In this document: in pieces, positions 8,158-63,597 of the stretch
How positions within the stretch are numbered: position 1 is the first letter of the stretch
Layout: the number at the start of each line of letters is the position of its first letter
DNA from: Planctomycetota bacterium
GTDB lineage: Bacteria; Planctomycetota; Brocadiia; Brocadiales; Bathyanammoxibiaceae
Assembly (NCBI GenBank): GCA_016209685.1
Contig: JACQVQ010000009.1
Location: 124,001 to 188,000, forward strand
DNA: 64,000 bases
Direction: 5' to 3'
Notes under the pieces: model-generated
Told to the model about the DNA's origin: nothing
What the model saw: the letters and a program-made list of their open reading frames with translations, nothing else
The model's database searches: none
Made by a program: the position numbers and the translations under genes

Positions 8158-8232
8158 AGGAACACAGGATACAGAATTCAGGATATAGAATCAATAACAC
8201 AAAATTCTGAATTCTGCATCCTTTCTTCTATT
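8158..8232. repeat. 'TTCTGTATTC/CAGAATTC'-type degenerate repeat
   Basis: aggaacacaggatacagaattcaggatatagaatcaataacacaaaattctgaattctgcatccttt; similar at 12108, 20051 and 23001. Confidence 0.8.
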
Positions 8233-9111: not shown

Positions 9112-10800
9112 ATGGCAAAGCATATCTTTGTTACAGGTGGGGTGGTGAGCAGTCTGGGGAAGGGGCTGAACTCCGCCTCCATCGGGCTCTTGCTGGAGAG
9201 CAGGGGGCTAAGGGTAAACCTCCAGAAGTTTGACCCCTATGTGAACGTGGACCCCGGGACCATGAGCCCCTTTGAACACGGGGAGGTATACGTGACGGAG
9301 GATGGTGCAGAGACAGACCTGGACCTCGGCCACTATGAGCGTTTTACCAATGCGGTGATAAACAGGGACTGTAACTTCACCACAGGCTCTATCTATTATT
9401 CCGTAATAAACAAGGAAAGGCGTGGGGAGTACCTGGGCAAGACCGTACAGATAGTACCCCACATTACTAACGAGATTAAGGAGTGCATCAGGAAGGTAGC
9501 CACGCCAGGGGTGGACGTGGCCATCTCGGAGATAGGAGGCATAGTGGGCGATATTGAGAGTCAGCCCTTCCTGGAGGCCATAAGACAGTTTGGTCTTGAG
9601 GTAGGCAGACAGAACGTCCTCTATGTCCATCTAACCCTTGTGCCTTACCTGAGGGCCGCCGATGAGATAAAGACCAAGCCCACCCAACATGCCGTAAGCC
9701 TGCTGAGACAGGCAGGTATCCAGCCCGACGTTCTCATCTGTCGCTGTGAAAAACCCTTGAGCCAGGAGCTCAAGGCCAAGATAGCCCTCTTCACGAGTGT
9801 GGAGAAGGAGGCGGTGATTGACGAAAAAGACGTTAAGCCCTACCTTTACGAAATACCCCTGCTCCTCAAGGAACAGGGCATGGATAACATCATTATAAAG
9901 AGACTGGGGCTCAAGACGGATGGTGGCAACCTCCAGGGGTGGGAAAGGATGCTTGAGAGGCTTAAGAACCCCAGGTACTCCACAGAGATAGCAGTGGTAG
10001 GTAAGTATATCGGGCACCAGTCTGCTTATGAGTCCATTTATGAATCTATTGTCCATGGGGGTATAGCTAACGACGCCAGGGTCAAGGTGAGGCGGGTAGA
10101 GGCAGAGGACGTAGAGGATAAAGGACCGGAGGCCTGTCTGGACGGGGTAAGTGGTATATTGGTACCCGGGGGCTTCGGGGAGAGGGGTATAGAGGGCAAG
10201 ATAGCCTCAGCCAGATATGCCAGGGAGAAGGAGGTCCCGTACTTTGGGATATGCCTCGGGCTTCAGTGTGCCACTATTGAATTCGCCAGAAACGCCTGTG
10301 GGTTGAAGAAGGCTAACAGTACGGAATTTGATAAAGACACCCCGCACCCCGTCATATCCCTCCTGGAAGAACAGAGGGGTATAAAGGAGATGGGAGGGAC
10401 TATGCGATTAGGGGCCCAGGACTGCCTCCTCCTGCCCGGAACCAGGGCCCATGCCGCCTACGGACAGAATAAGGTCTCAGAGAGACACAGACACCGCTAC
10501 GAATTTAACAACGATTATCGGGAACTCTTTGACTCCCACGGGATGGTCCTCAGCGGCCTATCCCCGGACGGTAAGTTAGTGGAAACAATGGAACTCAGGG
10601 ACCACCCCTGGTTTGTATGCGTACAATTCCACCCGGAATTTAAGTCCAAGCCTACCCATCCCCACCCCCTTTTCAGGGAATTCGTAAAGGCCACTCTAAC
10701 AGTGGATAAGGGTCAAGGGGTGGAGGCTGGGGGGCAGAGGTCAGGGGTCAGAGGCCAGGGGTTAGGGGTCAGAGGTCAGGGGCCAGGGGTCAGAGGTTAG
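9112..10800 (+). CDS. pyrG: CTP synthase with a repeat-derived C-terminal tail
   Basis: [25 protein letters not shown]; GATase motif [30 protein letters not shown]. Confidence 0.97.
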
Positions 10801-10857
10801 TAATCTTTTTCCCTAATCCCTGTCCCCTGGTCCCTGATCCCTGGTTTTGGAGGTGGT
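10720..10857. repeat. 'GGGGTCAGGGGYTAGGG' degenerate repeat forming an inverted repeat across the pyrG stop codon
   Basis: ggtcaggggtcagaggccaggggttaggggtcagaggtcaggggcc... followed by ...ccctaatccctgtcccctggtccctgatccctgg. Confidence 0.92.
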
Positions 10858-12091: not shown

Positions 12092-12201
12092 TCGGGGGGG
12101 GTAAGAACTAGAATTTAGAATACAAAATTTAGAATAAAGAATATTCTGAATTCTGACTGCTGAATTCTATATTCTTCTTTCTCACTAATCCCTAGCCCCT
12201 G

Positions 12202-14410: not shown

Positions 14411-14650
14411 CTTCCCACACCTCCTTTTTTTGACACCAGGCGGTACAACCGCCCTCTCCCCCAGGATCCTGCACAATTCCCCATCTGGAATAGCCCTCTT
14501 AGAGCTTAAAGATATACTCCAGAATCTTTGGTGTCAAATATATTTTTGGGGGCTTTAATGTAGGGGCAGGGGCTAGGGGGTAGGGAGTAGGGGAAAACCA
14601 TTGTAAATTTTAAAATTTACAATTTACAATTTCCAATTTTCAATAAAGGA

Positions 14651-16162: not shown

Positions 16163-16235
16163 TTTAAAAGAATTGTAAATTGGAAATTAGAAATTTAAAA
16201 TTTGAAATTTACAGTTTACAATTTCCAATTCATTT
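16163..16235. repeat. AT-rich 'AATTGTAAATTKGAAATTT' degenerate palindrome
   Basis: atttaaaagaattgtaaattggaaattagaaatttaaaatttgaaatttacagtttacaatttccaattc; relatives at 14598, 51785, 57446 and 61163. Confidence 0.9.
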
Positions 16236-16270
16236 CATTTCCCTGACCCCTGTTCCCTGTCCCCTGACCT

Positions 16271-17722
16271 CTACCCCTTAATAACCCCCAGGGGTTTTAG
16301 TTGTACGACCTTGCGGGCGATGCCAGCGTTATGTACCACGTCCACCACCTCCGTAACGTCTTTATAGGCCTCGGGTATCTCTTCGGCCAGGGTGTCCCAG
16401 CCTGAGGCCCTGACGATGATACCCTTGTCCTCCATCTCCCTGAGGATATTTTTTCCTTTGGCCCGCTTCATTGCCTGGGTGCGGCTCATTACCCTGCCAG
16501 CCCCATGACAACTGCTGGTAAAGGTCTCCTGACTGGCCGCCTCCGTGCCTACCAGTACATAGGAACACCTACCCATATCTCCAGGGATGAGGACAGGCTG
16601 GCCTATCTCCTTATAGGCCGCAGGGGTCTGGGGATGCCCAGGGGGTAGTGCCCTGGTAGCCCCCTTCCTGTGGACGCAGAGCTTCGTGGGCTTGCCGTCC
16701 ACGTTGTGGGTCTCAAACTTGGCAATGTTATGGCAGACGTCGTATATAAGCTCCAGCCCCAGCTCTTCCGAAGGCCTTTTTAGCATGTGGGAAAAACTCT
16801 CCCTTACCCAGTGGGTAATCATCTGGCGGTTGGTAAAGGCAAAATTGGCTGCGCAGGCCATGGCAGCAAAATATCGCCTCCCTTCCTCAGAGTCTATCGG
16901 GGCACAGCATAGCTGGCGGTCTACAAGCTCTATCCCATACTTACTGGCGGCCCTCAGCATGACCCCTATGAAATCATCGCAGACCTGATACCCTAACCCC
17001 CTACTACCTGTGTGCACCTGGACGGCTACCCCGCCCAGTTCAAGGCCCAGGGTCCTGGCCAGCTTCTCATCATATATCTCAGAGATTACGTCCACCTCCA
17101 CAAAATGGTTCCCAGAACCCAGGGTGCCTACCTGGGCCCGGCCCCTCTCCATGGCCCTATCGGATACCTCCCCTGGGTCAGCCCCCTGGATACAACCCCG
17201 TTCCTCAATGTGATCCAGGTCTCTCTCGTAGCCGTAACCCCTGTTTACGGCCCAGCGGGCACCTTGCCTCAGGAGACCCTTTTCCTCTTCAATACCCAGC
17301 TTGAGGTCCTTCCTGTGCGAGCCTACCCCTGTGGGGATATTCCTAAAAAGGGTATTAACTAATTCTTTCATCATATTCTGTATCTCTTCTCTACGCAGAT
17401 TGGAGCGTAATACCCTTACCCCGCAGTTGATGTCATAACCTACGCCCCCCGGGGAGACCACGCCTGTCTCATCAAAGGCGGCTACGCCACCTATGGGGAA
17501 CCCGTACCCCTCATGGATATCTGGCATGGCCAGGGAGGCCCTCACTATCCCCGGCAGGGTGGCCACATTGGCCACCTGACGCAGGCTCAAATCCCTTTTT
17601 ATCTCCTCCATAATCCTGGAATCGGCATAGACTATGCCCTCTACCTTCATACTGCCTTCCTTCTCTATCTTCCAGCGGTAGGGGTCTATCTGCTTTATGT
17701 TAAGGGTTAATTCCTTTTCCAT
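16271..17722 (-). CDS. rtcB: RNA-splicing ligase RtcB; start placed at MEKELTLNIKQ, not at the ORF-track start
   Basis: 'MPDIHEGYGFPIGGVAAFD', 'GGVGYDINCGVRVL', 'GTLGSGNHFVEV', 'HTGSRGLGYQVCDDF', 'SSCHGAGRVMSRTQA'. Confidence 0.96.
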   Translation of the reverse strand: MEKELTLNIKQIDPYRWKIEKEGSMKVEGIVYADSRIMEEIKRDLSLRQVANVATLPGIVRASLAMPDIHEGYGFPIGGVAAFDETGVVSPGGVGYDINCGVRVLRSNLRREEIQNMMKELVNTLFRNIPTGVGSHRKDLKLGIEEEKGLLRQGARWAVNRGYGYERDLDHIEERGCIQGADPGEVSDRAMERGRAQVGTLGSGNHFVEVDVISEIYDEKLARTLGLELGGVAVQVHTGSRGLGYQVCDDFIGVMLRAASKYGIELVDRQLCCAPIDSEEGRRYFAAMACAANFAFTNRQMITHWVRESFSHMLKRPSEELGLELIYDVCHNIAKFETHNVDGKPTKLCVHRKGATRALPPGHPQTPAAYKEIGQPVLIPGDMGRCSYVLVGTEAASQETFTSSCHGAGRVMSRTQAMKRAKGKNILREMEDKGIIVRASGWDTLAEEIPEAYKDVTEVVDVVHNAGIARKVVQLKPLGVIKG

Positions 17723-20005: not shown

Positions 20006-22987
20006 ATGGAATCCATTATAATTTTGCCTATGGTGGCCTTTACTAAAGAAAATCCGGTATCCAGAGTCCAGAATACGGCAGGCAGAATCCTGTGTATTGC
20101 ATTCTGTATCCTGTATTCTGGATTCTGCCTTTCCGTTCAGGCCCTGGCGGGGGGACAGCCATGGGAGGTGCCAAGGGAAGAATCCGCCTCAGGCGGACTG
20201 CGATTCCGCCTGACCAACACCGTCTTTGCCCATATAAAGGATTACTACATAGATTTCCATAACCTGGCAGCCGCGGAGGTCCTGGGGGACGCCCTCAGGG
20301 GCATAGAGGGCATCACACCCAACCTAAAAATAGACGTCCGCGAAAAAGAAGTTCTGGTCCAGTTGGGTGGCTCTACTAAGACCTTCGACACCGTAGGAAT
20401 AAAGAACTGGCTGGTACTGCGGGAACTACTGAAAGAGATATTAACCTTCGTAGAATCTGGTGGTAGCACCACAGGCAACAAGGGGGATTATCCTTTGAGC
20501 ACACCCGAGCTGGAGTACGCAGCCCTAAATGGCATCCTGAATAGTTTTGACCCCTACTCCAGGCTGTACCGTCCAGAAGACCTGGAGAGGATAAGGAACC
20601 TGGGGTCAGGGAGTTTCATGGGATTGGGAGTGGAGGTAGAATTTAAGGAGGGATTTCTAACGGTAACGTACCTTCACAAGGACTCACCCGCCCACGAGGC
20701 GGGTCTACAGCTCGGGGACAGGATAGTAGAGATAGAGGGAGAGAGCACCAGGAATATGGGTCTTACTGAGGCTCTGGGCCGCATGAGCGGCCCGCAGGGC
20801 ACCAGCATCACCCTTTCGGTATGGAGGTCGGCGGTATCCAACTTGCCCATCAAAAAGCAAGGCCACTCCCATCAAAGCGGCAGGGCTGCTGCCGACGAAG
20901 GCGGCCAGATACTGAGCTTCACCTTGAAAACAGAGCGTATAGAGCCGGAGCCTGCCGAATGGGCCCTCTTAGAAGGTGGGAGGGCCACTTCCGATAGTAG
21001 GGGAGATGCTCCCAATGAGGGCCTGGGATACATAAAACTAAAGGGCTTTCAGGAGGGGGCCTTTTATTCCATGGTAAAAGCCATAAGAGGACTGGAAGAG
21101 GTTGGGGGACTGAAGGGGCTGGTGCTTGACCTTAGAAATAATTGCGGGGGGGTGATGGAGGAGATAATAAACGTGGCAGAACTCTTCCTCCCGGATGGAA
21201 TCATCACCATAAAGACCCGAACCGGCGAGGTACTGCCCGAGTTTGTTACCGCCCGTCCCTCCGGGAGGGTAGAGGAGGCGTGTCCCATCGTGGTCTTGAT
21301 GGACGGGGAGAGCGCCTCAGGTGCAGAGATATTGTCAGCCGCCTTAAGGGACAATGGGCGGGCCTTGCTCGTGGGGGAGCAGACCTTTGGCAAGGCCTGC
21401 ATCCAGCAGGTCTTCCGCCTCTATGGAAGGCACACCCTCAAACTAACCACCGCCAAGTACTTTACCCCCGGGGGCGAATATATAAACCTTAGGGGCCTTA
21501 CCCCAGACGTCCTCCTTGTGCCAATAAAGGTGGCGGGGGCCACCTCAGGCGGACCCACGTCCAGGGATAAGACTACCCTGGCCCGCAGGGCCCATTATGC
21601 CCATAGTGACAACGGTGATGGTACTACACACCGTACCCCTACTGTCCTGTGCTATCTGGAAAGGGAAGAGTCGGCAGGATCACCTCCGCCAGTGGAGTAC
21701 GCCTCGGGTAGCAAGGCCGCCCCCATCGGTGGATTCCAAAAAGACTTCCAGATACAACTGGCCAAAAACCTCCTGAAAGCGGTCCTTTCTGACGGTAAGA
21801 GGGCCTCTTTGGGGGTGGTAAAAGAGTACCAGGCCGAAGAGGATAGTAGGATTGTAAAGGCCCTGGAGTCCAGGAAGATAGACTGGTCCACGGGAGCAAC
21901 CGAGGGAATGCCTGTCTCTGTTGCCAATCTAGCCATTGATAAAGAAGAGGTAGAGGCAGGAGATACCGTCACCCTCACCCTCTCTGTGGAAAATCGCGGG
22001 GAACACCCCCTTTTCAGGGTCCTGGCAGAAGGCATCTCAGGAAATCCTGCCCTTAACGGACTGGAGTTCCCTATGGGAAAGGTAGAACCAGGTAAGAAGG
22101 TCAGTCATAGCCTTAAAATAAAAGTCCCTGATGATTCACTGGACAGACACGATGAAATAGTATTGAGGTTTACGGAGGATAATGGGTTTCCTCCCGCAGA
22201 TATTGTGAACTGGGTCACTATCTGGGCCCACCCAACTCCCTTATTTGCCTACTCCTGCCAATTACCCCGGGTCCAGGCAGTTTCCGCCTCAGACGGACCA
22301 GGTATAGAAAAGGCGGTATCCGCCCCTTCGGCTTCGCTCAGGGCAGGCTCAGACGTACCAGCAAAAAAGAGCGGAAAGGAGACGGAACTCTTACTGAAGG
22401 TGAAGAACATAGGTCTTGGGGTATCCCATCGGAACGTGGTGGTTCTGAAAGGAGATGAAGAGGCGGGAGTAACAGTCCTGAAGGGGCGGCAAGAACTTGG
22501 CGTACTGAAACCTGGTGAAGAGAGGGAGGTAAAATTTGCCTTCACCTTTACGCCGCCTGTCGGGGGGCCACTCCCAACCACGGCTAGACCACTAAGGCTG
22601 CTTATCACAGACCTCCTCCTGGGCGCCCAGCTATCTGCCAGGTTACCCCTACAAGCCCAGTACCCTATTGGCACGGGGCAGGAAGAAAGGGGTACGGAGG
22701 AGGTATCCGGCCTGCCACCCTCCATAATCCTTCAAAATGCTGTCCTGCTGGCGGCGGAGGGGTTCGTGGAGTTATCCTTCACGGCAAGAGACGACCGTCA
22801 CCCGGAAGGGGCCTATGTGCTGGTAAATGAACGTAAGGTCTTCTTCGGTTACAATCCTGAACCAACCCCGGAGCATACCTTCACCACCAGCCTCCCCATA
22901 ACCAGGGGACCGAACCTTGTCAGGATAGTGGCCTACGATGACCAGGGACTTTCAACGGAGAAGGCATTCGTGATTACGGGAAGGTAA
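20006..22987 (+). CDS. S41 C-terminal processing peptidase with PDZ domain and a long CARDB-like C-terminal extension
   Basis: 'FMGLGVEVEFKEGFLTVTYLHKDSPAHEAGLQLGDRIVEIEG' (PDZ), 'GESASGAEILSAALRDNGRALLVGEQTFGKACIQQ' (S41). Confidence 0.9.
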   Translation: MESIIILPMVAFTKENPVSRVQNTAGRILCIAFCILYSGFCLSVQALAGGQPWEVPREESASGGLRFRLTNTVFAHIKDYYIDFHNLAAAEVLGDALRGIEGITPNLKIDVREKEVLVQLGGSTKTFDTVGIKNWLVLRELLKEILTFVESGGSTTGNKGDYPLSTPELEYAALNGILNSFDPYSRLYRPEDLERIRNLGSGSFMGLGVEVEFKEGFLTVTYLHKDSPAHEAGLQLGDRIVEIEGESTRNMGLTEALGRMSGPQGTSITLSVWRSAVSNLPIKKQGHSHQSGRAAADEGGQILSFTLKTERIEPEPAEWALLEGGRATSDSRGDAPNEGLGYIKLKGFQEGAFYSMVKAIRGLEEVGGLKGLVLDLRNNCGGVMEEIINVAELFLPDGIITIKTRTGEVLPEFVTARPSGRVEEACPIVVLMDGESASGAEILSAALRDNGRALLVGEQTFGKACIQQVFRLYGRHTLKLTTAKYFTPGGEYINLRGLTPDVLLVPIKVAGATSGGPTSRDKTTLARRAHYAHSDNGDGTTHRTPTVLCYLEREESAGSPPPVEYASGSKAAPIGGFQKDFQIQLAKNLLKAVLSDGKRASLGVVKEYQAEEDSRIVKALESRKIDWSTGATEGMPVSVANLAIDKEEVEAGDTVTLTLSVENRGEHPLFRVLAEGISGNPALNGLEFPMGKVEPGKKVSHSLKIKVPDDSLDRHDEIVLRFTEDNGFPPADIVNWVTIWAHPTPLFAYSCQLPRVQAVSASDGPGIEKAVSAPSASLRAGSDVPAKKSGKETELLLKVKNIGLGVSHRNVVVLKGDEEAGVTVLKGRQELGVLKPGEEREVKFAFTFTPPVGGPLPTTARPLRLLITDLLLGAQLSARLPLQAQYPIGTGQEERGTEEVSGLPPSIILQNAVLLAAEGFVELSFTARDDRHPEGAYVLVNERKVFFGYNPEPTPEHTFTTSLPITRGPNLVRIVAYDDQGLSTEKAFVITGR

Positions 22988-23057
22988 GGCAGTCGTCAGG
23001 ATTCTGTATTCTGTATTCTTGATTCTATATTCCGAATCCTGTATCCTGTAGCCTGTC

Positions 23058-34304: not shown

Positions 34305-36137
34305 ATGATTAATTATCTTGACGTAATCGTAGTAGGCGGTGGACATGCGGGCTGTGAGGCGGCACTGGCTACGGCAAGGATGGGACAGAGGACCCTCCTC
34401 CTCACCATTAACCCGGACACTATTGCCCAGATGTCCTGTAACCCGGCAATCGGGGGTATGGCCAAGGGACAGCTAGTCAGGGAGATAGATGCCCTAGGGG
34501 GTGAGATGGCCAAGGTCATTGACGCCACGGCCATCCAGTTCCACATGCTCAACACCAAAAAGGGCCCAGCCGTACGTAGTCCGAGGGCACAGGCCGATAA
34601 GCGACTCTACCAGAAGGAGATGAAACACCGACTGGAGGCACAAAAAAACCTGACTATACGCCAGGACGTGGCAGAGTCCTTGCTGGTAGAGAATGGAAAG
34701 GCCGTTGGGGTAGTAGGGCAGACGGGGACACATTACAAGGCCCGGGCAGTCATCCTTACCACCGGCACCTTCCTGAAAGGGCTTATACACATAGGGGAGA
34801 GCAAGAGACCTGGGGGTAGGACAGGGGAGCCCTCGGCCCAGGGACTATCAGATTCCCTCAGGGCGCTGGGTTTTGAGGTAGGACGCCTCAAGACTGGCAC
34901 CCCTCCCAGAGTCAATGCCAGGACCATAAATTTTGAGGGGCTTCAACAACAGTGGGGGGACACTGAACCCCAGCCCTTTTCTTTTTCAACAAAGAAGGAC
35001 CAGGAGTGGCCCTCCCACCCACAGGTACCTTGTCATATTACTTACACCAATGCCGAGACCCACAAGATAATCAGGGAAAACCTCCACAGGGCACCGCTCT
35101 ACACCGGCCAGATAAAGGCCGTGGGCCCCCGCTACTGCCCCTCCATAGAGGACAAGATAGTCCGCTTTGCCGATAAGGGACAACACCAGATATTCCTTGA
35201 GCCTGAGGGGCTGGATACCCTGGAGACGTACTGTAACGGCATCGCCACCAGCCTACCATGCGACGTGCAGGAACGACTGGTGCGTTCTATACGGGGGTTA
35301 GAGAAAGCAGAGATAATCCGCTACGGTTACGCCATAGAGTACGACTTCGTACCTCCCACCCAGCTTAAGCCCACACTGGAGACAAAGCTGGTTGAAAACC
35401 TCTTTTTGGCCGGGCAGATAAACGGCACGTCCGGTTACGAGGAGGCCGCCTCCCAGGGGATAATGGCAGGTATTAATGCGGCCCTGAAGCTAGAGGGCGG
35501 GGGAGGGTTCGTCCTGGACCGCTCAGAGGCCTACATAGGGGTGCTCATTGACGACCTGGTAACCAAGGGGACGCTTGAGCCTTACCGCATGTTTACCTCC
35601 AGGGCCGAATACAGGCTCATACTGCGACAGGATAACGCCGATAGGCGCCTCATGAAGTACGGATATAAGTTTGGGCTTATCCCACAGGGGCAGTGGAAGT
35701 CCCTGGAGGAGAAGGAATCCTTAATTGCCTGGACCAGGGCGTATCTGCAGGATACCCCCTACGAAGGGCAGAGTCTGGAGAAATTTCTCAGGAAGCCTGA
35801 AGTCGACTTTGCAAGACTGCTGACAATAAACCCCTTTCTTAGAGAAAAGGGACTCCCTCCTGGGGTAAAGGAGCAGGTAGAAATAGAAGTAAAATACGAG
35901 GGCTACATCCAGAGGCAGATGGCCCATGTAGAGAAGTTCAAGAAGATGGAATCCTGGAGCCTCCCTCCCTGGCTGGATTATCAGGAAATCCCTGAGCTAA
36001 GGAAGGAAGCCCGCCAAAAGCTCCTTGAGATAAGACCTGCTTCTCTGGGCCAGGCCGCCCGCATCTCAGGGGTGTCCCCTGCCGACGTCTCCATCCTGAT
36101 GGTATATCTTACCTCAAAGTCAGGGGCTAGGGGTTAG
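34305..36137 (+). CDS. mnmG: tRNA uridine-5-carboxymethylaminomethyl modification enzyme MnmG/GidA
   Basis: 'VIVVGGGHAGCEAALATARMG', 'MSCNPAIGGMAKGQLVREIDALGGEM', 'GQINGTSGYEEAASQGIMAGINAAL', 'FTSRAEYRLILRQDNADRRL'. Confidence 0.97.
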   Translation: MINYLDVIVVGGGHAGCEAALATARMGQRTLLLTINPDTIAQMSCNPAIGGMAKGQLVREIDALGGEMAKVIDATAIQFHMLNTKKGPAVRSPRAQADKRLYQKEMKHRLEAQKNLTIRQDVAESLLVENGKAVGVVGQTGTHYKARAVILTTGTFLKGLIHIGESKRPGGRTGEPSAQGLSDSLRALGFEVGRLKTGTPPRVNARTINFEGLQQQWGDTEPQPFSFSTKKDQEWPSHPQVPCHITYTNAETHKIIRENLHRAPLYTGQIKAVGPRYCPSIEDKIVRFADKGQHQIFLEPEGLDTLETYCNGIATSLPCDVQERLVRSIRGLEKAEIIRYGYAIEYDFVPPTQLKPTLETKLVENLFLAGQINGTSGYEEAASQGIMAGINAALKLEGGGGFVLDRSEAYIGVLIDDLVTKGTLEPYRMFTSRAEYRLILRQDNADRRLMKYGYKFGLIPQGQWKSLEEKESLIAWTRAYLQDTPYEGQSLEKFLRKPEVDFARLLTINPFLREKGLPPGVKEQVEIEVKYEGYIQRQMAHVEKFKKMESWSLPPWLDYQEIPELRKEARQKLLEIRPASLGQAARISGVSPADVSILMVYLTSKSGARG

Positions 36138-36208
36138 GGGTCAGGGGTTAGGGGAAAACTTTTAAACCTTTTAGTCCCTAATCCCTAGTCCCTAACCCCT
36201 AATCTGGC
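36118..36208. repeat. 'GGGGTCAGGGGTTAGGG' repeat as an inverted repeat between convergent mnmG and rho
   Basis: tcaggggctaggggttaggggtcaggggttagggg...tttt...agtccctaatccctagtccctaacccctaatc. Confidence 0.93.
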
Positions 36209-51675: not shown

Positions 51676-51872
51676 TAACAACATCATCATAACAAATTTT
51701 AGACAGAATTCAAATTCCAGTATAGGCCCTTTGTCCAAGGACCAGGGAGTAGGAAATAGCAATCTTTTTTACCCCCCTTGCTAAAAGGATTGTAAATTGG
51801 AAGTTGTAAATTTTAAATTTGAAATTTCCAATTTACAATTTGCAATACAGTCTTTCCCCTACCCCCTAACCC

Positions 51873-53231
51873 TTAGTTCTTGGGGACTTCCATGGGGTGT
51901 TTTATCTTCTCCAAGTAAGATTCAAACTGAAACGTGGGGCTGTGTTCGGGGTCATGGCACCCCTTGCAACCCTCTGGGGAGACCTTGCCGTATCTCCCTG
52001 AGTGCGGAATTCGGAATTCGGAATTCGGAATTCCCCGCTCCACACCCTGCATTCCACATTCGGCAATGTGTAGGCTCCCAGGCCCATGACATGCCTCACA
52101 GCCTACGCCTGTGAGGTCAGGGCTTATGTCCTGAGACTGGAAACCGCTCACGTAATTGAGGCCCACCACATGGCAGGCCACGCACTCGGGGTCAGAGGCC
52201 CGTCCTGCCTTTAGTAGTGTCTCATAGGCAGTGGCATGGAGGGTACTCCCCCAGTGCTGGGATACGGCAGGGTGACAGGGGCTACATGCGCTACTCCCGA
52301 CGTAGCTGGTCTGTCCAGGGAGGGGAAACTTCTCTACCCGTAATAAGAGATTCTCCTCCCTGAGTCTCTCCTGGTAACTATCGAGCACTTGAAGCATAGG
52401 GGCCGAGTCCTTAAAGCGTTCATTCAGTGTTACAGTCTCTATTGCCCCTTCCACCTCAAGTGGATTATCCGGATTATAGCGGTACAACACCAGGTGTTTG
52501 CCCTTGATACCAGGGGTAAAGACCCAGGTCTTGCCCTCTTTTACTACCACAGGATGGTCTGCCCTGTGTCCCGATGCTATCAACTGAAATTCCGGGAAGT
52601 CCCTGGCTAGCTTAAGGGACTCTTCCATACTGGCATGGGAGAGGAGTACCAGGACGTCTACTTTATCCTTCAATTCTTTTATCAGGGGCTGGAGGGCCTC
52701 TGTAGGGGAAATTATTTCCACGCCAGCAGGTGGTGTACCAAGGAGGGCGGGGGAGAGGATCCCCAGGAAACCAATCCTTAAGGTCTTCACTCTATGGATT
52801 TTATAAGGAACCACCTCAATAAAGGGGTTGGCAACCCGTATATTGGAGGAGAGTAAGGGTACAGAATCTGGGGGGAAGAGATAGGCCAGTACCTCCAGCC
52901 CCATATCCAGGTCCATCTCCCCCAGATTATGTACGGAATAATTCATAATTTTTAGGGCCTGGACCAGGGTCTCTGCCTTTAATTCGTCCTGCCTCTGGAT
53001 GCTAAAAGTACTGCCACCATGACCTGCCAGGTCGCCAAGGCTTACTGACAACCACGGCTCAGAGAGAGATTTCAGAAAGGTGTGCCTCTTGGCTATACCA
53101 CCCATCAGGGGCTTCGCACAGCCACAGGGTTCTAGATAACCCCTTTCCTCACCGCTGAATAGGAGGCAGACCTCCTCTGCCTGTAACGAGGCAGAGAGGA
53201 GGGCGAGGAGCAGGAGTGCACAGGGTATCAT
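51873..53231 (-). CDS. Secreted tetraheme cytochrome c with N-terminal metallophosphatase/5'-nucleotidase-like domain
   Basis: Four CxxCH motifs (CSPCH, CVACH, CEACH, CKGCH); N-terminal 'GYLEPCGCAKPLMGGIAKRHTFL', 'VSLGDLAG', 'ASGHRADH'; signal peptide. Confidence 0.8.
   Translation of the reverse strand: MIPCALLLLALLSASLQAEEVCLLFSGEERGYLEPCGCAKPLMGGIAKRHTFLKSLSEPWLSVSLGDLAGHGGSTFSIQRQDELKAETLVQALKIMNYSVHNLGEMDLDMGLEVLAYLFPPDSVPLLSSNIRVANPFIEVVPYKIHRVKTLRIGFLGILSPALLGTPPAGVEIISPTEALQPLIKELKDKVDVLVLLSHASMEESLKLARDFPEFQLIASGHRADHPVVVKEGKTWVFTPGIKGKHLVLYRYNPDNPLEVEGAIETVTLNERFKDSAPMLQVLDSYQERLREENLLLRVEKFPLPGQTSYVGSSACSPCHPAVSQHWGSTLHATAYETLLKAGRASDPECVACHVVGLNYVSGFQSQDISPDLTGVGCEACHGPGSLHIAECGMQGVERGIPNSEFRIPHSGRYGKVSPEGCKGCHDPEHSPTFQFESYLEKIKHPMEVPKN
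52001..52065. repeat. 'GGAATTC' degenerate repeat inside the multiheme cytochrome gene
   Basis: agtgcggaattcggaattcggaattcggaattccccgctccacaccctgcattccacattcggc. Confidence 0.92.
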
Positions 53232-57240: not shown

Positions 57241-57312
57241 GCCCACGGGGGGAGTTGAACCCCCAACCCCGTCATTACGAATGACGTGCTCTGCCGGTTG
57301 AGCTACGTGGGC
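57241..57312 (-). tRNA. tRNA-Thr (anticodon CGT)
   Basis: Minus strand GCCCACG-TA-GCTC..GAGC-A-CGTCA-TTCGTAA-TGACG-..-GGGGG-TTCAACT-CCCCC-CGTGGGC folds as a cloverleaf. Confidence 0.95.
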
Positions 57313-57490
57313 ATTGGTTAGGGACCAGGGACCAGAGACCGGGGAACAGGGACTAGGGAAATAAAATTTTTCTAATCCCTGACCCCTGAACCCTGGCCTC
57401 TGTCCCCTGCTCCCAATCCTCAGGTGGTAATATTATACTCTTTTTACAAATTGAAAATTTAAAATTTACAATTTCCAATTCTGTATATTC

Positions 57491-58639
57491 CTACCTCACA
57501 AACCTCTTCCCTGCTAATTGCTTCACCAGCTTCTTTAGCTCAAGCACGGTCAGGTTGCTGGACACTACATGGGTAGGGAGACCGCTTGCCTCAGTAATCT
57601 CGTCAATAGTCTTGGGATGACTGCTCAGGAGGGAGAGTATTTTTTCTTCGTTGGGGTTGAGGTTGAGCTGGTGTCTTGGTGGAGTTTGAATTTCGGAATT
57701 ACGCACTCCGCATTCCGCATTGACTGTAGAGCCCAGTCCCTCCGGGGTAGACTCCTTTACTACTAACCCCTCGCCCAGCGGGCCTAATTCCTCCAGGATG
57801 TCTGAGACGTCTTCTACCAGTTTTGCCCCCTCTTTGATGAGCTTGTGGGTACCACGGCTGGAAGGGCTGTCTATCTGTCCTGGCAGGGCGAAGACCTCCT
57901 TGCCCTGTTCCAGTGCCCAGTGGGCGGTTATTAGTGAACCGCTCCTCTGCCCTGCCTCTATCACCACCACCCCAAGGGATAGTCCGCTGATGAGTCTGTT
58001 GCGTGGGGGGAAGTTGGTCCTGTCGGGAGGGGTGAGCATCGGGAGTTCTGAGACTATGGCCCCCTCCTTGCTTATCCTCTCTGCCAGTTCTACGTTCTCC
58101 CTGGGGTAAATCCTGGCCAGGCCACAGCCCATTACCGCAATGGTCCTGGCCCCGGCCTTGAGGGCACCAGAGTGGGCCGAGGTATCTATGCCCCTGGCAA
58201 GCCCGCTTACTATGGTAAAGCCGGCATGTCCCAGCACACCGGCAAATCGCTCTGCCTGAATCTGTCCGTAATAGGTACAGAGCCTTGAGCCTACTATGGC
58301 CATTGATAGGACGTCCTGGGGTCTTAGCTCCCCCTTGACGTATAGTACGGGGGGCGGGTCATAAATGAACTTCAGGTTGTGGGGATAATCTTTATCGTTC
58401 CGGGCTAACAGTCTCACCCCGTGTTCCTCCGCCAGACGGAGTTCCCCGTCAACGTCTGCCTCGGTACTCCGGAGGGATTTGACCTGTTGGGTGTCCAGTC
58501 CAGCCTCCAGTAGTCCCTTTTCCGTGGCCATGAGGGCTGACTGTGCCGAACCAAATCGCTCTAAGAGACGCCTGCACGTAGTGGGTCCGATACCCCTGGC
58601 GAGGTTTAATCTAAGGAGGGCACGGAGTTCCGCATCCAC
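57491..58639 (-). CDS. dprA: DNA processing protein DprA
   Basis: 'MAIVGSRLCTYYGQIQAERFAGVLGHAGFTIVSGLARGIDTSAHSGAL', 'FPPRNRLISGLSLGVVVIEAGQRSGSLITAHWALEQGKEVFALPG'. Confidence 0.96.
   Translation of the reverse strand: MDAELRALLRLNLARGIGPTTCRRLLERFGSAQSALMATEKGLLEAGLDTQQVKSLRSTEADVDGELRLAEEHGVRLLARNDKDYPHNLKFIYDPPPVLYVKGELRPQDVLSMAIVGSRLCTYYGQIQAERFAGVLGHAGFTIVSGLARGIDTSAHSGALKAGARTIAVMGCGLARIYPRENVELAERISKEGAIVSELPMLTPPDRTNFPPRNRLISGLSLGVVVIEAGQRSGSLITAHWALEQGKEVFALPGQIDSPSSRGTHKLIKEGAKLVEDVSDILEELGPLGEGLVVKESTPEGLGSTVNAECGVRNSEIQTPPRHQLNLNPNEEKILSLLSSHPKTIDEITEASGLPTHVVSSNLTVLELKKLVKQLAGKRFVR
57691..57721. repeat. 'GGAATTC' family repeat inside dprA
   Basis: tttcggaattacgcactccgcattccgcatt. 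Confidence 0.88.
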
Positions 58640-59752: not shown

Positions 59753-61162
59753 ATGTCAAGGGATTCTGGTTTTAGGAGTTATCGGGAGGCCGTGGACTTC
59801 CTCTCCCAGGGGCCTGACCTGGAGAGACTGACTCCTGATAATAGGTACCACCTGCCTCGTTTTAACCTGGAGAGGGTGGAGAGACTCCTTGCCCGTGTCG
59901 GCAGTCCACAGGAGGGGCTAAAGGTAGTACACGTGGCAGGGACAAAGGGCAAGGGCTCCACGGCGGCCATGATTGCCCGGTTCTTAGAAGAGGCAGGGTG
60001 CAGGGTGGGGCTGTTTACCTCTCCCCATCTGATACACCTGGAGGAGAGGATAAAGATAAATGGGGACACGATACCCAAAGAGGAGGTGTGTCGTCTCCTC
60101 GGGAGATTGAAGGATTACGTAGAGGGGGAGAGGAAGAAGGATATCAATGATTCGCCCACCTTCTTTGAGATACTTACAGTCCTGGGATTGATGTATTTTT
60201 CCGGGCGGACTGGAATTCCTAATTCCGCATTCCGCATTCCGAACTCAGATGGGGTAGACTGGGCAGTCCTGGAGGTAGGCATGGGGGGGAGGTTGGATGC
60301 CACCAACGTGGTTACCCCGAGGGTATCCGTCATTACCGAGATTGGCATGGACCATACGGAGTTTCTGGGTGTTACCCTGAGGCAGATAGCGATGGAGAAG
60401 GCAGGGATAATCAAGGAGGGTGTCCCTGTAGTCTCTTCTCCTGGGTCTGAAGAGGCCCTGGCAGTGGTAGAGGAGAGGTGCCGGGAGAAAGGGTCCCCGC
60501 ATTATCTGGTCGGGCGGGATATAGAGGTAACGTCCGTAAAGGGTATCCCCCTGGAAGGAGTTGAATGCAACGTCAGGACGTGGGTCAGGGAATACAGGGG
60601 TTTGAGGATACCACTACTTGGGAACCACCAGGCCAGGAACTGTGCCTGTGCGCTGGGGGTAATGGAGGTGTTGGCAGAAGAGGGCAGTATTAAGTGGTCA
60701 GAAGAGCCAGAAGAGATGATCCAGAGGGCCTTGAACCACCTGCGCTGTCCAGCCAGGATAGAGGTGGTCTCAAGGGAACCCCTTACAATACTGGACTCGG
60801 CCCATAACGTCCCCTCCATGTGGGCCCTTGCAGAGACCCTCAAGAGGGACGTCCCCTTCAAGAGGTTAATCCTAGTACTTGGGTTAGCCCGGGATAAAGA
60901 CATAGATGGGATACTGAGGGAGATAGTACCGCTTGCCGATGAATTAATCTTGACGTCCTCTGGTTATCCCAGGGCCGCAGAGCCAGGGCTTCTAAGGGAG
61001 AAGGTGATGGGACTCTTTGGCCGAAGGGCCCTCGTAGTTGGGGAGGTTGAGAGGGTCATGGAGGAGGCCCAAAGGCTGGCCAGGCCCGGGGATTGCATCT
61101 GCGTGACAGGCTCCTTCTATCTGGCAGGGAGGGTGATGGAGGTTATGGGTGCACATGCCTAG
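59753..61162 (+). CDS. folC: Folylpolyglutamate/dihydrofolate synthase
   Basis: 'VVHVAGTKGKGSTAAMIARFLEEAG', 'FTSPHLIHLEERIKINGD', 'LEVGMGGRLDATNVV', 'GNHQARNCACAL', 'LDSAHN'. Confidence 0.95.
   Translation: MSRDSGFRSYREAVDFLSQGPDLERLTPDNRYHLPRFNLERVERLLARVGSPQEGLKVVHVAGTKGKGSTAAMIARFLEEAGCRVGLFTSPHLIHLEERIKINGDTIPKEEVCRLLGRLKDYVEGERKKDINDSPTFFEILTVLGLMYFSGRTGIPNSAFRIPNSDGVDWAVLEVGMGGRLDATNVVTPRVSVITEIGMDHTEFLGVTLRQIAMEKAGIIKEGVPVVSSPGSEEALAVVEERCREKGSPHYLVGRDIEVTSVKGIPLEGVECNVRTWVREYRGLRIPLLGNHQARNCACALGVMEVLAEEGSIKWSEEPEEMIQRALNHLRCPARIEVVSREPLTILDSAHNVPSMWALAETLKRDVPFKRLILVLGLARDKDIDGILREIVPLADELILTSSGYPRAAEPGLLREKVMGLFGRRALVVGEVERVMEEAQRLARPGDCICVTGSFYLAGRVMEVMGAHA
60211..60247. repeat. 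'GGAATTC' family repeat inside folC
   Basis: tggaattcctaattccgcattccgcattccgaactca. Confidence 0.9.
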
Positions 61163-61250: not shown

Positions 61251-61814
61251 CTATTGTCTTATAACGTCCACTTCAAAAGTATAGACCTCAGTGTCGGGTT
61301 CCTTCCAGGCCTCGGGGGATAGCCCTGCCTTCCCAGCACAACACTGAGAGAGGAACTCTTCCTTGCCCCAGCCGGTCTCCTGGGCCACCTGGGGCAGAAA
61401 GCAGCCGTAACAAGACCCATTCTTTACGTAGACGCCATGTCTGCCCAGTTCAAAATTGAGCGGATCCGTAATCCTTTTTAAAGGAGACGTCACGGAGACC
61501 TCAATATCCACCTCCCTTAGTTCTTGTGGTCTTACGTGTTCGGTCCGGAAGCGTGGGTCTTCAAGGGCGGCGGCCACCGCCATTTCTATCACTAGCTGAT
61601 ACAGGGGCATTTCTGAGACAAACCGCCCCATACAACCCCTCAGGCGTTCGTGCCTCTTGAGGGTGACGAAGACCCCGTGATGGTGGAGGAGTTCCGGGTC
61701 ATTTATCTGGAAGTCGGGGATGGGGTTGCCCTGCAGGGTTGCCTCTAAGCTCTGTCTGGCTATCTCCAGGAGCTTACGGTGTACGTGGGTCTCATTACCT
61801 TCCAAGTCCTGCAT
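61251..61814 (-). CDS. AMMECR1-domain protein (AmmeMemoRadiSam system A-type); start at MQDLEGNE
   Basis: 'GVFVTLKRHERLRGCMGRFVSEMPLYQLVIEMAVAAALEDPRF', 'LREVDIEVSVTSPLKRI'. Confidence 0.9.
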   Translation of the reverse strand: MQDLEGNETHVHRKLLEIARQSLEATLQGNPIPDFQINDPELLHHHGVFVTLKRHERLRGCMGRFVSEMPLYQLVIEMAVAAALEDPRFRTEHVRPQELREVDIEVSVTSPLKRITDPLNFELGRHGVYVKNGSCYGCFLPQVAQETGWGKEEFLSQCCAGKAGLSPEAWKEPDTEVYTFEVDVIRQ

Positions 61815-63597
61815 GACTACCGACCGGCGAGCGTTCCTGAAAGACGGTGGAGGTGAAGACATAAAACTCCATATCTTTATTCCACCAGGCGTGCCAGGGC
61901 AGTCCTGCCTTCTGGCATAAGTGGTGGAGGGTCTCTTCCCTGTTCCACCCCTGCTCAGTAGCCACCTGGGGGAGAAAGACGGCAGAGGCATTCCCTAGTT
62001 GTATAAGGATCCCCTCCTGGCCTACCTGGAACTCCTCTGGCCCATTTATCCTCCTCAGGGGGCTGAGGACGGAGACCTCCAGGTTTATCTCTCTTAGCTC
62101 TTCTTCTTTCAGGGGAGGGAAGCGGAAGTCCCTGAAACCAGAACACATGGCATTTTCCACCACTGCCTGCCACAGGGGGGCCCTGGGCAGTATGTGACCT
62201 ATACAGCCCCGTAGCTCTCCATTCTTGTGGAGGGTTACAAATACGCCGCACTTCTCTCTGAGCCTGGGGCTGAGCGTGCCTTCCTTGACCTCTGGCAGTT
62301 TACGGTCTCTGGTATAGCTATCCAGGGTGGTGCGGGCCAGGGAGAGGAGGGCCTGTCCCTCCTCGGCAGTGAGTTCACCAGGAGGAGGGGGGTTCCCTCC
62401 TACAAGGAGGATAGGACTACTATAAAATTGGGAGCGCGGAGTGCGGAATTCGGAATGCGGAATTCCATAATCCACACTCCGCACTCCGTACTCTGCATTC
62501 CGCATTCCGGGGATGGCCTTCCCAGTCTTCTTCCCTGGGGCTGTGAATACGATGGAGGTATAGCTTACCGACTGGCTAAAGTCATTGACCATCCTGCCTG
62601 AGGTGTCGTAGACCAGCACGGTACCCTGGGTCTCTCTGGGCAGGAGCTTCAGGAGTACGGCAATGGGATAGAATCCGCAGACGGTAATACCTGTCTCTTC
62701 CCTGTACCTCATAAGGCCGTCAAAATCCAGGGCAAGTATCCTCTCTGTGGCCCCGTGGTCCAGTTTCTTTAGATTCTCCTCAATATTGCTCCTGAATGGG
62801 GTGTAGCTGAATCTGTCCCCGTAGTGGGTGAAGTCAGAGCTCACGACCACAAGGGTATTTTCATCCATGTATGGCCTCAGGGCGTCGGCTATCTTCTGGA
62901 AGTCATCTTCCATAAGGGCGCCCAGGAGGACAGGTACTAGCTTGAACTCCCCCAGTACGGTCTGTAAGAACGGGAGTTGTGTCTCTATAGAGTGCTCGTT
63001 TTTGTATGCCCCTGAGTAATAGCCGAAGAGGGCATCGTGTCCAAAGTAGGGGGGGTGTTCCACAAGCTGGTTGCAGACCTCCTGGTCTATCTCTACCTGC
63101 CCAAGGGGGGTCTTGTAGTAGCGGGCCTTGAGGATGGCCGCCCCACGGTATCTCTTACCGTAGTGGCTTGGGGCAAGGACAATCACCCTCTTGTATTCCT
63201 TGCCCTGGACGGTCTTATAGCCGTAGGCCGCTACGCTACCAGAATAATCATAGCCCGCATGGGGGGAAATAAGGGCCACGGGCCTGCCCGCTAGCTCTCT
63301 TTGAGGGACATTGGCGAGGAGACGGTCGAGCATCTCCTTGAGTTTGTCCGGGTCTCGTGGATAAAAGAACCCAGATACTGCGGGTTCCTGAACGTCTGTA
63401 CTCTCCGCCCCCGTAATAGCAGGGCCTGGTTTGCTTTCCTGTGCCGAACAAACTCTGCCACTACACCATAGTCCTCCGCTCAGGAGCAGGAGGACTATTA
63501 TCAAGTAAACAGTAGGCAGTAGACAGTAGACAGCGTACAGGGACAGTGCTCTCCCCTGTCTACTGTCTACTGTTTGCTGTCTACTGATTTTGGACAT
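61795..63597 (-). CDS. MEMO1-like (AmmeMemoRadiSam B) + AMMECR1 (A) fusion protein
   Basis: 'VALISPHAGYDYSGSVAAYGYKTV', 'VIVLAPSHYGKRYRGAAI', 'VVVSSDFTHYGDRFSY'; C-terminal 'GVFVTLHKNGELRGCIGHILP...LREINLEVSVLSPLRRI'. Confidence 0.92.
   Translation of the reverse strand: MSKISRQQTVDSRQGRALSLYAVYCLLPTVYLIIVLLLLSGGLWCSGRVCSAQESKPGPAITGAESTDVQEPAVSGFFYPRDPDKLKEMLDRLLANVPQRELAGRPVALISPHAGYDYSGSVAAYGYKTVQGKEYKRVIVLAPSHYGKRYRGAAILKARYYKTPLGQVEIDQEVCNQLVEHPPYFGHDALFGYYSGAYKNEHSIETQLPFLQTVLGEFKLVPVLLGALMEDDFQKIADALRPYMDENTLVVVSSDFTHYGDRFSYTPFRSNIEENLKKLDHGATERILALDFDGLMRYREETGITVCGFYPIAVLLKLLPRETQGTVLVYDTSGRMVNDFSQSVSYTSIVFTAPGKKTGKAIPGMRNAEYGVRSVDYGIPHSEFRTPRSQFYSSPILLVGGNPPPPGELTAEEGQALLSLARTTLDSYTRDRKLPEVKEGTLSPRLREKCGVFVTLHKNGELRGCIGHILPRAPLWQAVVENAMCSGFRDFRFPPLKEEELREINLEVSVLSPLRRINGPEEFQVGQEGILIQLGNASAVFLPQVATEQGWNREETLHHLCQKAGLPWHAWWNKDMEFYVFTSTVFQERSPVGSHAGLGR
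62431..62510. repeat. 'GGAATTC' family repeat (two-armed) inside the MEMO-AMMECR1 fusion gene
   Basis: ggagcgcggagtgcggaattcggaatgcggaattccataatccacactccgcactccgtactctgcattccgcattccgg. Confidence 0.93.
63503..63588. repeat. 'CAGTAGACAGTAGACAG' degenerate repeat as an inverted repeat, within the 5' coding region of the MEMO fusion
   Basis: aagtaaacagtaggcagtagacagtagacagc...ctgtctactgtctactgtttgctgtctactg. Confidence 0.9.

Follow-up and report, generated by a model that had tools for sequence, protein, structure and literature searches.

In Yersinia, the palindromic element YAPL/RU-2 forms part of the predicted signal peptide (SP) at locus YPO1552 (Delihas; PMC2229807). Like the heptamer arrays described here for G000, a genome from a lineage of uncultured Brocadiales, it is a dispersed, hairpin-forming repeat that is read in frame as part of a predicted SP; unlike them, it measures 168 bp, has a single open frame and gives one new hypothetical gene (PMC2229807). 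The G000 arrays concern many conserved exported families, are built from a frame-independent heptamer and appear to have replaced ancestral SPs. Rickettsia palindromic elements and similar repeats are dispersed and lie in frame within conserved proteins (Ogata et al., as cited in PMC2229807), but they have a defined length and are not period-7 arrays. Direct repeats of the heptamer TAACTGA, for which translational control has been proposed, occur in Beggiatoaceae, cyanobacteria and Bacteroidetes (PMC4679880). These are, like the G000 arrays, dispersed, mostly intergenic heptamers with coding consequences noted on one strand; they differ in consisting of one heptamer and in that the coding cases fall mainly in hypothetical proteins or at the ends of proteins, and the sections consulted describe no SP role (PMC4679880). 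The G000 arrays are not built from the TAACTGA unit. PARCEL repeats resemble them as palindromic repeats that code for parts of membrane or exported proteins, yet they form 25-aa (75-nt) amphipathic repeat domains and not N-terminal SP h-regions (PMC2996958). In the papers searched for TAYCLLP-like peptide motifs and repeat-made SPs, only the Yersinia precedent came up, and none was found to report that heptamer repeats act as SPs in a range of conserved exported proteins or take the place of ancestral SPs. The scale, the frame-independence and the replacement of ancestral SPs appear to be new.

The window is a 64,000-nucleotide stretch (C9:124001-188000) of the 2.02-Mb genome G000. Among named genomes, Planctomycetes RIFCSPHIGHO2_12_FULL_52_36 (L061) and Brocadiaceae Yes70-17 (L062) are closest to it. 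L062 and G002 belong to the same genus as G000, G006 to a sister genus and G011 to another family of the order. Arrays were surveyed in sampled stretches of G000 (864 kb, 43% of the genome). SP calls combine hydropathy, charge, the AxA rule and homology.

A heptamer hairpin at the start of an S41 peptidase gene

The longest open reading frame of the S41 gene runs from GTG 20003 to the stop at 22987 (994 aa). It matches Peptidase_S41 (PF03572; 142.6 bits, 1.1e-41) and PDZ_6 (PF17820; 45.4 bits, 6.9e-12), and the Ser/Lys active-site motifs of peptidase family S41 are visible in the translation (ESASGAE, TFGKAC). The first-pass annotation had placed a dispersed repeat in frame at the beginning of this S41/PDZ frame, where it indeed lies, and had assigned copies near 8158, 12108 and 23001 to the same family, with which repeat families D14, I2 and I15 agree. 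The feature is larger than described there: positions 20062-20127 make up a whole imperfect hairpin with a folding energy of -15.7 kcal/mol, compared with -5.75 +/- 2.04 for shuffled sequences (z = -4.88). Its 5' arm encodes a polar segment with Arg (SRVQNTAGR) and its 3' arm a hydrophobic one (ILCIAFCILYSGFC). Within the window, ATTCTGKATTCTG occurs nine times at up to one mismatch, with 0.21 occurrences expected. Dispersed palindromic copies lie both between genes and in frame within them, as MITE/RPE-like elements do, and the heptamer arrays are degenerate and variable in length.

Table 1 Features of the window around the heptamer hairpins
Feature	Position	Strand	Basis
TATAAT, 7 nt 5' of ATG 20030	20017-20022	+	three-species alignment
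S41 (C-terminal-processing-type) peptidase gene with PDZ domain	20030-22987	+	profile matches; start by three-species alignment
Predicted SP MVAFTKENPVSRVQNTAGRILCIAFCILYSGFCLSVQALA, expected cleavage after ALA, before GGQPWE	20030-20149	+	AxA rule, conserved AGGQPWE context
Degenerate heptamer hairpin, in frame at S41 N-terminus	20062-20127	+	fold and repeat family
Heptamer (ATTCTGN) array encoding predicted SP h-region	20086-20127	+	array survey
Second dispersed palindrome (TCCGCCTCAGGCGGA) in S41 ORF	20183-20197	+	family D7
ATTCTGN-family copy, intergenic, downstream of S41 gene	22997-23056	+	repeat search, families
ATTCTGN-family copy, both arms	8160-8231	+	families I2, I15, D14
ATTCTGN-family copy	12140-12170	+	family D14
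Memo-AMMECR1 protein gene, second in-window case, N-terminus MSKISRQQTVDSRQGRALSLYAVYCLLPTVYLIIVLLLLSGG	61795-63597	-	complete heptamer hairpin
Heptamer hairpin of Memo-AMMECR1 gene, TACTGTC/GACAGTA family (I12)	63504-63585	-	z = -6.89
Polar-coding heptamer array (EYGVRSVDYGIPHSEFRTP), contrast case	62436-62495	-	Memo-AMMECR1 gene linker

The DNA alignment of three species indicates where translation begins. ATG 20030 and the TATAAT upstream of it are invariant, and the in-frame ATG 20006 is lost in the L062 orthologue; ATG 20030 is therefore preferred and is probably the start, rather than GTG 20003. Type I Sec SPs present a positively charged n-region, a hydrophobic h-region and small residues at -3 and -1, and a crude rule-based test finds these features in the S41 N-terminus as MVAFTKENPVSRVQNTAGR, ILCIAFCILYSGFCLSV and QALA/GG, the slash marking the expected cleavage site here and below. 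The protein would be translated from ATG 20030, exported by Sec and cleaved. One may conjecture that TATAAT is the -10 box of a leaderless or near-leaderless transcript; it lacks a -35 match and is absent from the listing of the sigma-70 promoter scan, which at this gene gives no site on the + strand.

Comparison with orthologues provides insight into the origin of this N-terminus. In L062, whose orthologue is ~90% identical elsewhere, a different heptamer, (TTACTGC)n, replaces the ATTCTGN array and also encodes an SP-like sequence, MQKTGFLVSTAYCLLLTAYCLLPIPAFA/GG. G006 has a repeat-free, ordinary SP in the same position, RLICFVLAALMAIAVSSSCILA/GGQPWEMPREE, with the same LAGGQPWE cleavage context. 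Among the three same-genus species, 89% of the left flank and 93% of the right flank are invariant at the DNA level, compared with 55% of the segment between. The comparison of N-termini, which the first-pass annotation had named as a check, supports its proposal that a repeat was exapted into an export signal, here a predicted SP. The other option it gave, in which translation starts downstream and the repeat serves as promoter or leader, is disfavoured because the flanks are conserved (the n-region start and AGGQPWEMPREE flank the repeat), because the other heptamer of L062 is SP-coding too and because G006 has an ordinary SP there; the array is probably not a misplaced start. For this gene, one of 13, the orthologues support an older SP having been re-created rather than a new one made.

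The S41 gene carries other repeats as well. The palindrome at 20183-20197 encodes ESASGGL, where the sister-genus orthologue has EEPDLSVQ. Further dispersed palindromes lie in frame at 21536-21552 and ~22320-22350, with TCCGCCTCAGGCGGA and CTTCGGCTTCGCTCAGG among these and the one at 20183-20197.

Heptamer arrays across the genome and its relatives

With each copy of a 7-bp unit the frame moves on by one base; if the unit has no stop, all three frames therefore yield the same heptapeptide, rotated. By the genetic code, (ATTCTGT)n translates to ILYSVFC and (TACTGCC)n to TAYCLLP, as seen in the translations; TACTGCN has no stop on its hydrophobic strand. A hydrophobic arm thus works in any frame. 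The complements of the ATTCTGT and TACTGCC arrays read as polar peptides with Arg, such as TEYRIQN and QTVDSRQ. Hairpin arms follow one another as polar, then hydrophobic, which is the order of SP n- and h-regions, and N-termini of this build are found in the S41 gene, the Memo-AMMECR1 gene and a second S41 gene (the latter in both G000 and G006). Units in G000 include ATTCTGN, TACTGCN, AATGCGG, ACTCCCT and others. Heptamer hairpins of other families (CAGGGGT, AAATTGT), one often beside or inside another, occur in the window at 10707-10850, 14593-14640, 16165-16277, 36114-36204, 51782-51871 and 57312-57504.

At a strict threshold the 864 kb contain 145 period-7 arrays, and each of the other lags between 4 and 12 gives 0-10; a looser threshold raises the period-7 count to 175. 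Hydrophobic arrays in G000 genes number 13 at N-termini and 0/24 elsewhere (p = 2.6e-5), a statistic partly inflated because longest-ORF callers easily absorb stop-free arrays at ORF starts. Same-genus G002 and sister-genus G006 show the N-terminal pattern too; pooling the three gives 23 N-terminal and 0/32 elsewhere, counts that are not fully independent because orthologues are counted separately and a hairpin may enter with both of its arms. The orthologue comparisons, in five families, are the stronger evidence. Array-poor G003 and G012 (400 kb each) contain almost no arrays and zero array-made SPs. The TACTGCN 20-mer is present in 15 of the 296 genomes of the phylum; in the more distant of them most arrays lie between genes or in frames open to doubt, with no clear SP. 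G011 (5.9 Mb) has 155 exact ATTCTGNATTCTG sites, the most of any relative searched. A RAYT/Y1 transposase was considered as a driver of the arrays and rejected, as PF01797 matches do not follow array density (array-rich G000 3, G002 3 and G006 1; array-poor G003 2 and G012 12; ATTCTGN-rich G011 27).

The 13 genes with array-made hydrophobic N-termini include TolC-like, M16, C11, cytochrome-like, Amt-kinase and lipoprotein genes, and repeat-free orthologues were compared for five of them (S41, TolC-like, M16, C11 and cytochrome). In the four besides S41, the array stands between the start codon and the conserved cleavage or mature region, and the sister genera have repeat-free SPs. The TolC-like protein of G000 reads MRRLS-LLTAYCLLHIVYCILPTT-LHA/EGVEF (whole, MRRLSLLTAYCLLHIVYCILPTTLHA/EGVEF), that of G002 MRRFLPLSTVYCLLSTFFCLTVLIPLTLHA/EGVEF and the repeat-free one of G006 MSKILRLFSLFCLTILMPITLHA/EGVEF. 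The M16 protein (LYA/QHG) has ...FLLLTAYCLLLTAPLYA/QHG in G000 versus ...SIFVLILFLAQPLYA/QHG in G006, while the c-type cytochrome-like protein has MKSALYRLLLTAYCLLPTAIYA/EG in G000 and plain SPs in G003-G007. The C11 peptidase follows the same pattern with a less conserved cleavage region. Shine-Dalgarno-like sequences precede the ATG ahead of the array in the TolC-like (GGAGGAGAAAGAC-ATG) and M16 (AAGGAGAAAAGGGAC-ATG) genes. Where the protein is of lipoprotein type, the lipobox adjoins the array (CLLLVGC in G000, MKTRRYLLLSTVYCLLSTVLLVGC in G002). The Memo-AMMECR1 hairpin presents its polar arm first and its hydrophobic arm after.

Two observations concern individual N-termini. A hairpin-made one belongs to a fusion protein that joins an ammonium transporter with PAS and histidine-kinase domains (G000 C3:132816-135779, L099). 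Two unrelated SPs, G000 C3:184859-186364 (L102) and G006 C64:33989-35365 (L215), have a GC-rich palindrome that immediately precedes the heptamer array and encodes RRLKPAA(T), by which the n-region gains Arg/Lys.

Arrays inside proteins encode polar peptides, for example NAECGMQNAE and TPHSAIRNPHS. The one in the Memo-AMMECR1 gene falls between the Memo (71-350) and AMMECR1 (419-586) domains. Polar-coding arrays of the AATGCGG/AATTCCG families were seen within proteins at G000 C8:313466-314383 (L078) and, in the window, at 62436-62495, 52000-52035, 57700-57722 and 60214-60246; one polar-array protein, with its array near the N-terminus, we take by eye to be TruA-like. These arrays resemble the Rickettsia palindromic elements, which to our knowledge are not known as a source of SPs.

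Weighing the origin of the probable array-made signal peptides

Directly observed are in-frame arrays, SPs free of repeats in the sister genera, sister species that differ in the heptamer they carry at one site, and the lack of hydrophobic arrays elsewhere in genes. On this basis, heptamer hairpin arrays have very probably become Sec SP parts of exported proteins, replacing pre-existing SPs, in 13 genes within 43% of the genome. The arrays could instead be intergenic leaders or promoters, stop-free by chance, with the real start downstream. The location of 127 of the 175 arrays between genes and the tendency of longest-ORF callers to swallow stop-free arrays speak for such an artefact, and genes among the 13 outside the orthologue comparison could be of this kind, for example C3:145441 and C9w:64997. 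It is nevertheless an improbable account, given that in the S41, TolC-like, M16, C11 and cytochrome genes the array follows the start codon and precedes the conserved cleavage or mature region, that the sister genera have ordinary SPs and that no second hydrophobic signal comes after the array.

Two further accounts are, in our estimate, very improbable. Slippage of a 7-bp unit, which is not a multiple of three, would shift the downstream frame by one base and could switch an exported protein on and off, and several arrays, as in the cytochrome gene, do consist of near-perfect units. The S41 array, however, is too degenerate for easy slippage, and SP arrays of equal length that differ by substitutions only are seen for the cytochrome (G000/G001/G002), C11 (G000/G002) and S41 (G000/G001). 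The assemblies give one state per genome, in which a rare switch could go unseen. Equally hard to credit is that slippage turned SP-coding DNA into tandem repeats on the spot, with no link to the dispersed elements. Low-complexity hydrophobic segments can gain tandem repeats; yet identical heptamers stand in intergenic hairpins throughout the genome, the SPs contain full hairpins including the opposite arm, and array-poor relatives have no SP arrays.

Heptamer hairpins as proposed portable signal-peptide cassettes

If dispersed hairpin arrays did become SP parts, the process would start from the degenerate 7-bp-period hairpin elements abundant in G000, which we assume arrive by block replacement or insertion and then decay. 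TACTGCN or ATTCTGN would always supply a hydrophobic stretch in one orientation (TAYCLLP, ILYSVFC), and in the opposite one a polar stretch with Arg. An array landing between the start codon and the existing cleavage region of an exported protein would then become the h-region, and a full hairpin would also supply the n-region of the Sec SP. Selection, and not chance alone, would retain the SP arrays; 11 of 21 substitutions in them are synonymous, compared with 31% expected (p = 0.03), and selection on the array sequence is weakly supported.

We lean toward a broader reading, in which heptamer hairpins are portable, frame-independent SP cassettes, with a polar Arg arm as n-region and a second arm as h-region, whose spread repeatedly overwrote ancestral SPs. 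The crude rule predicts ~145 SP-like genes in the sampled 864 kb, therefore ~9% of the SPs of the lineage (13/~145) would be repeat-made, turning over between sister species. As the unit is not a multiple of three and gives the same peptide in each frame, strand and not frame would decide function.

SPs evolve fast and retain little homology, and the origin of new ones is rarely visible. Here the raw material of new SPs is identifiable, with before and after states in sister genera. Dependence on strand and not on frame can be predicted directly for other genomes rich in heptamers, such as G011 and those of cyanobacteria, and the origin of targeting signals becomes countable and testable.
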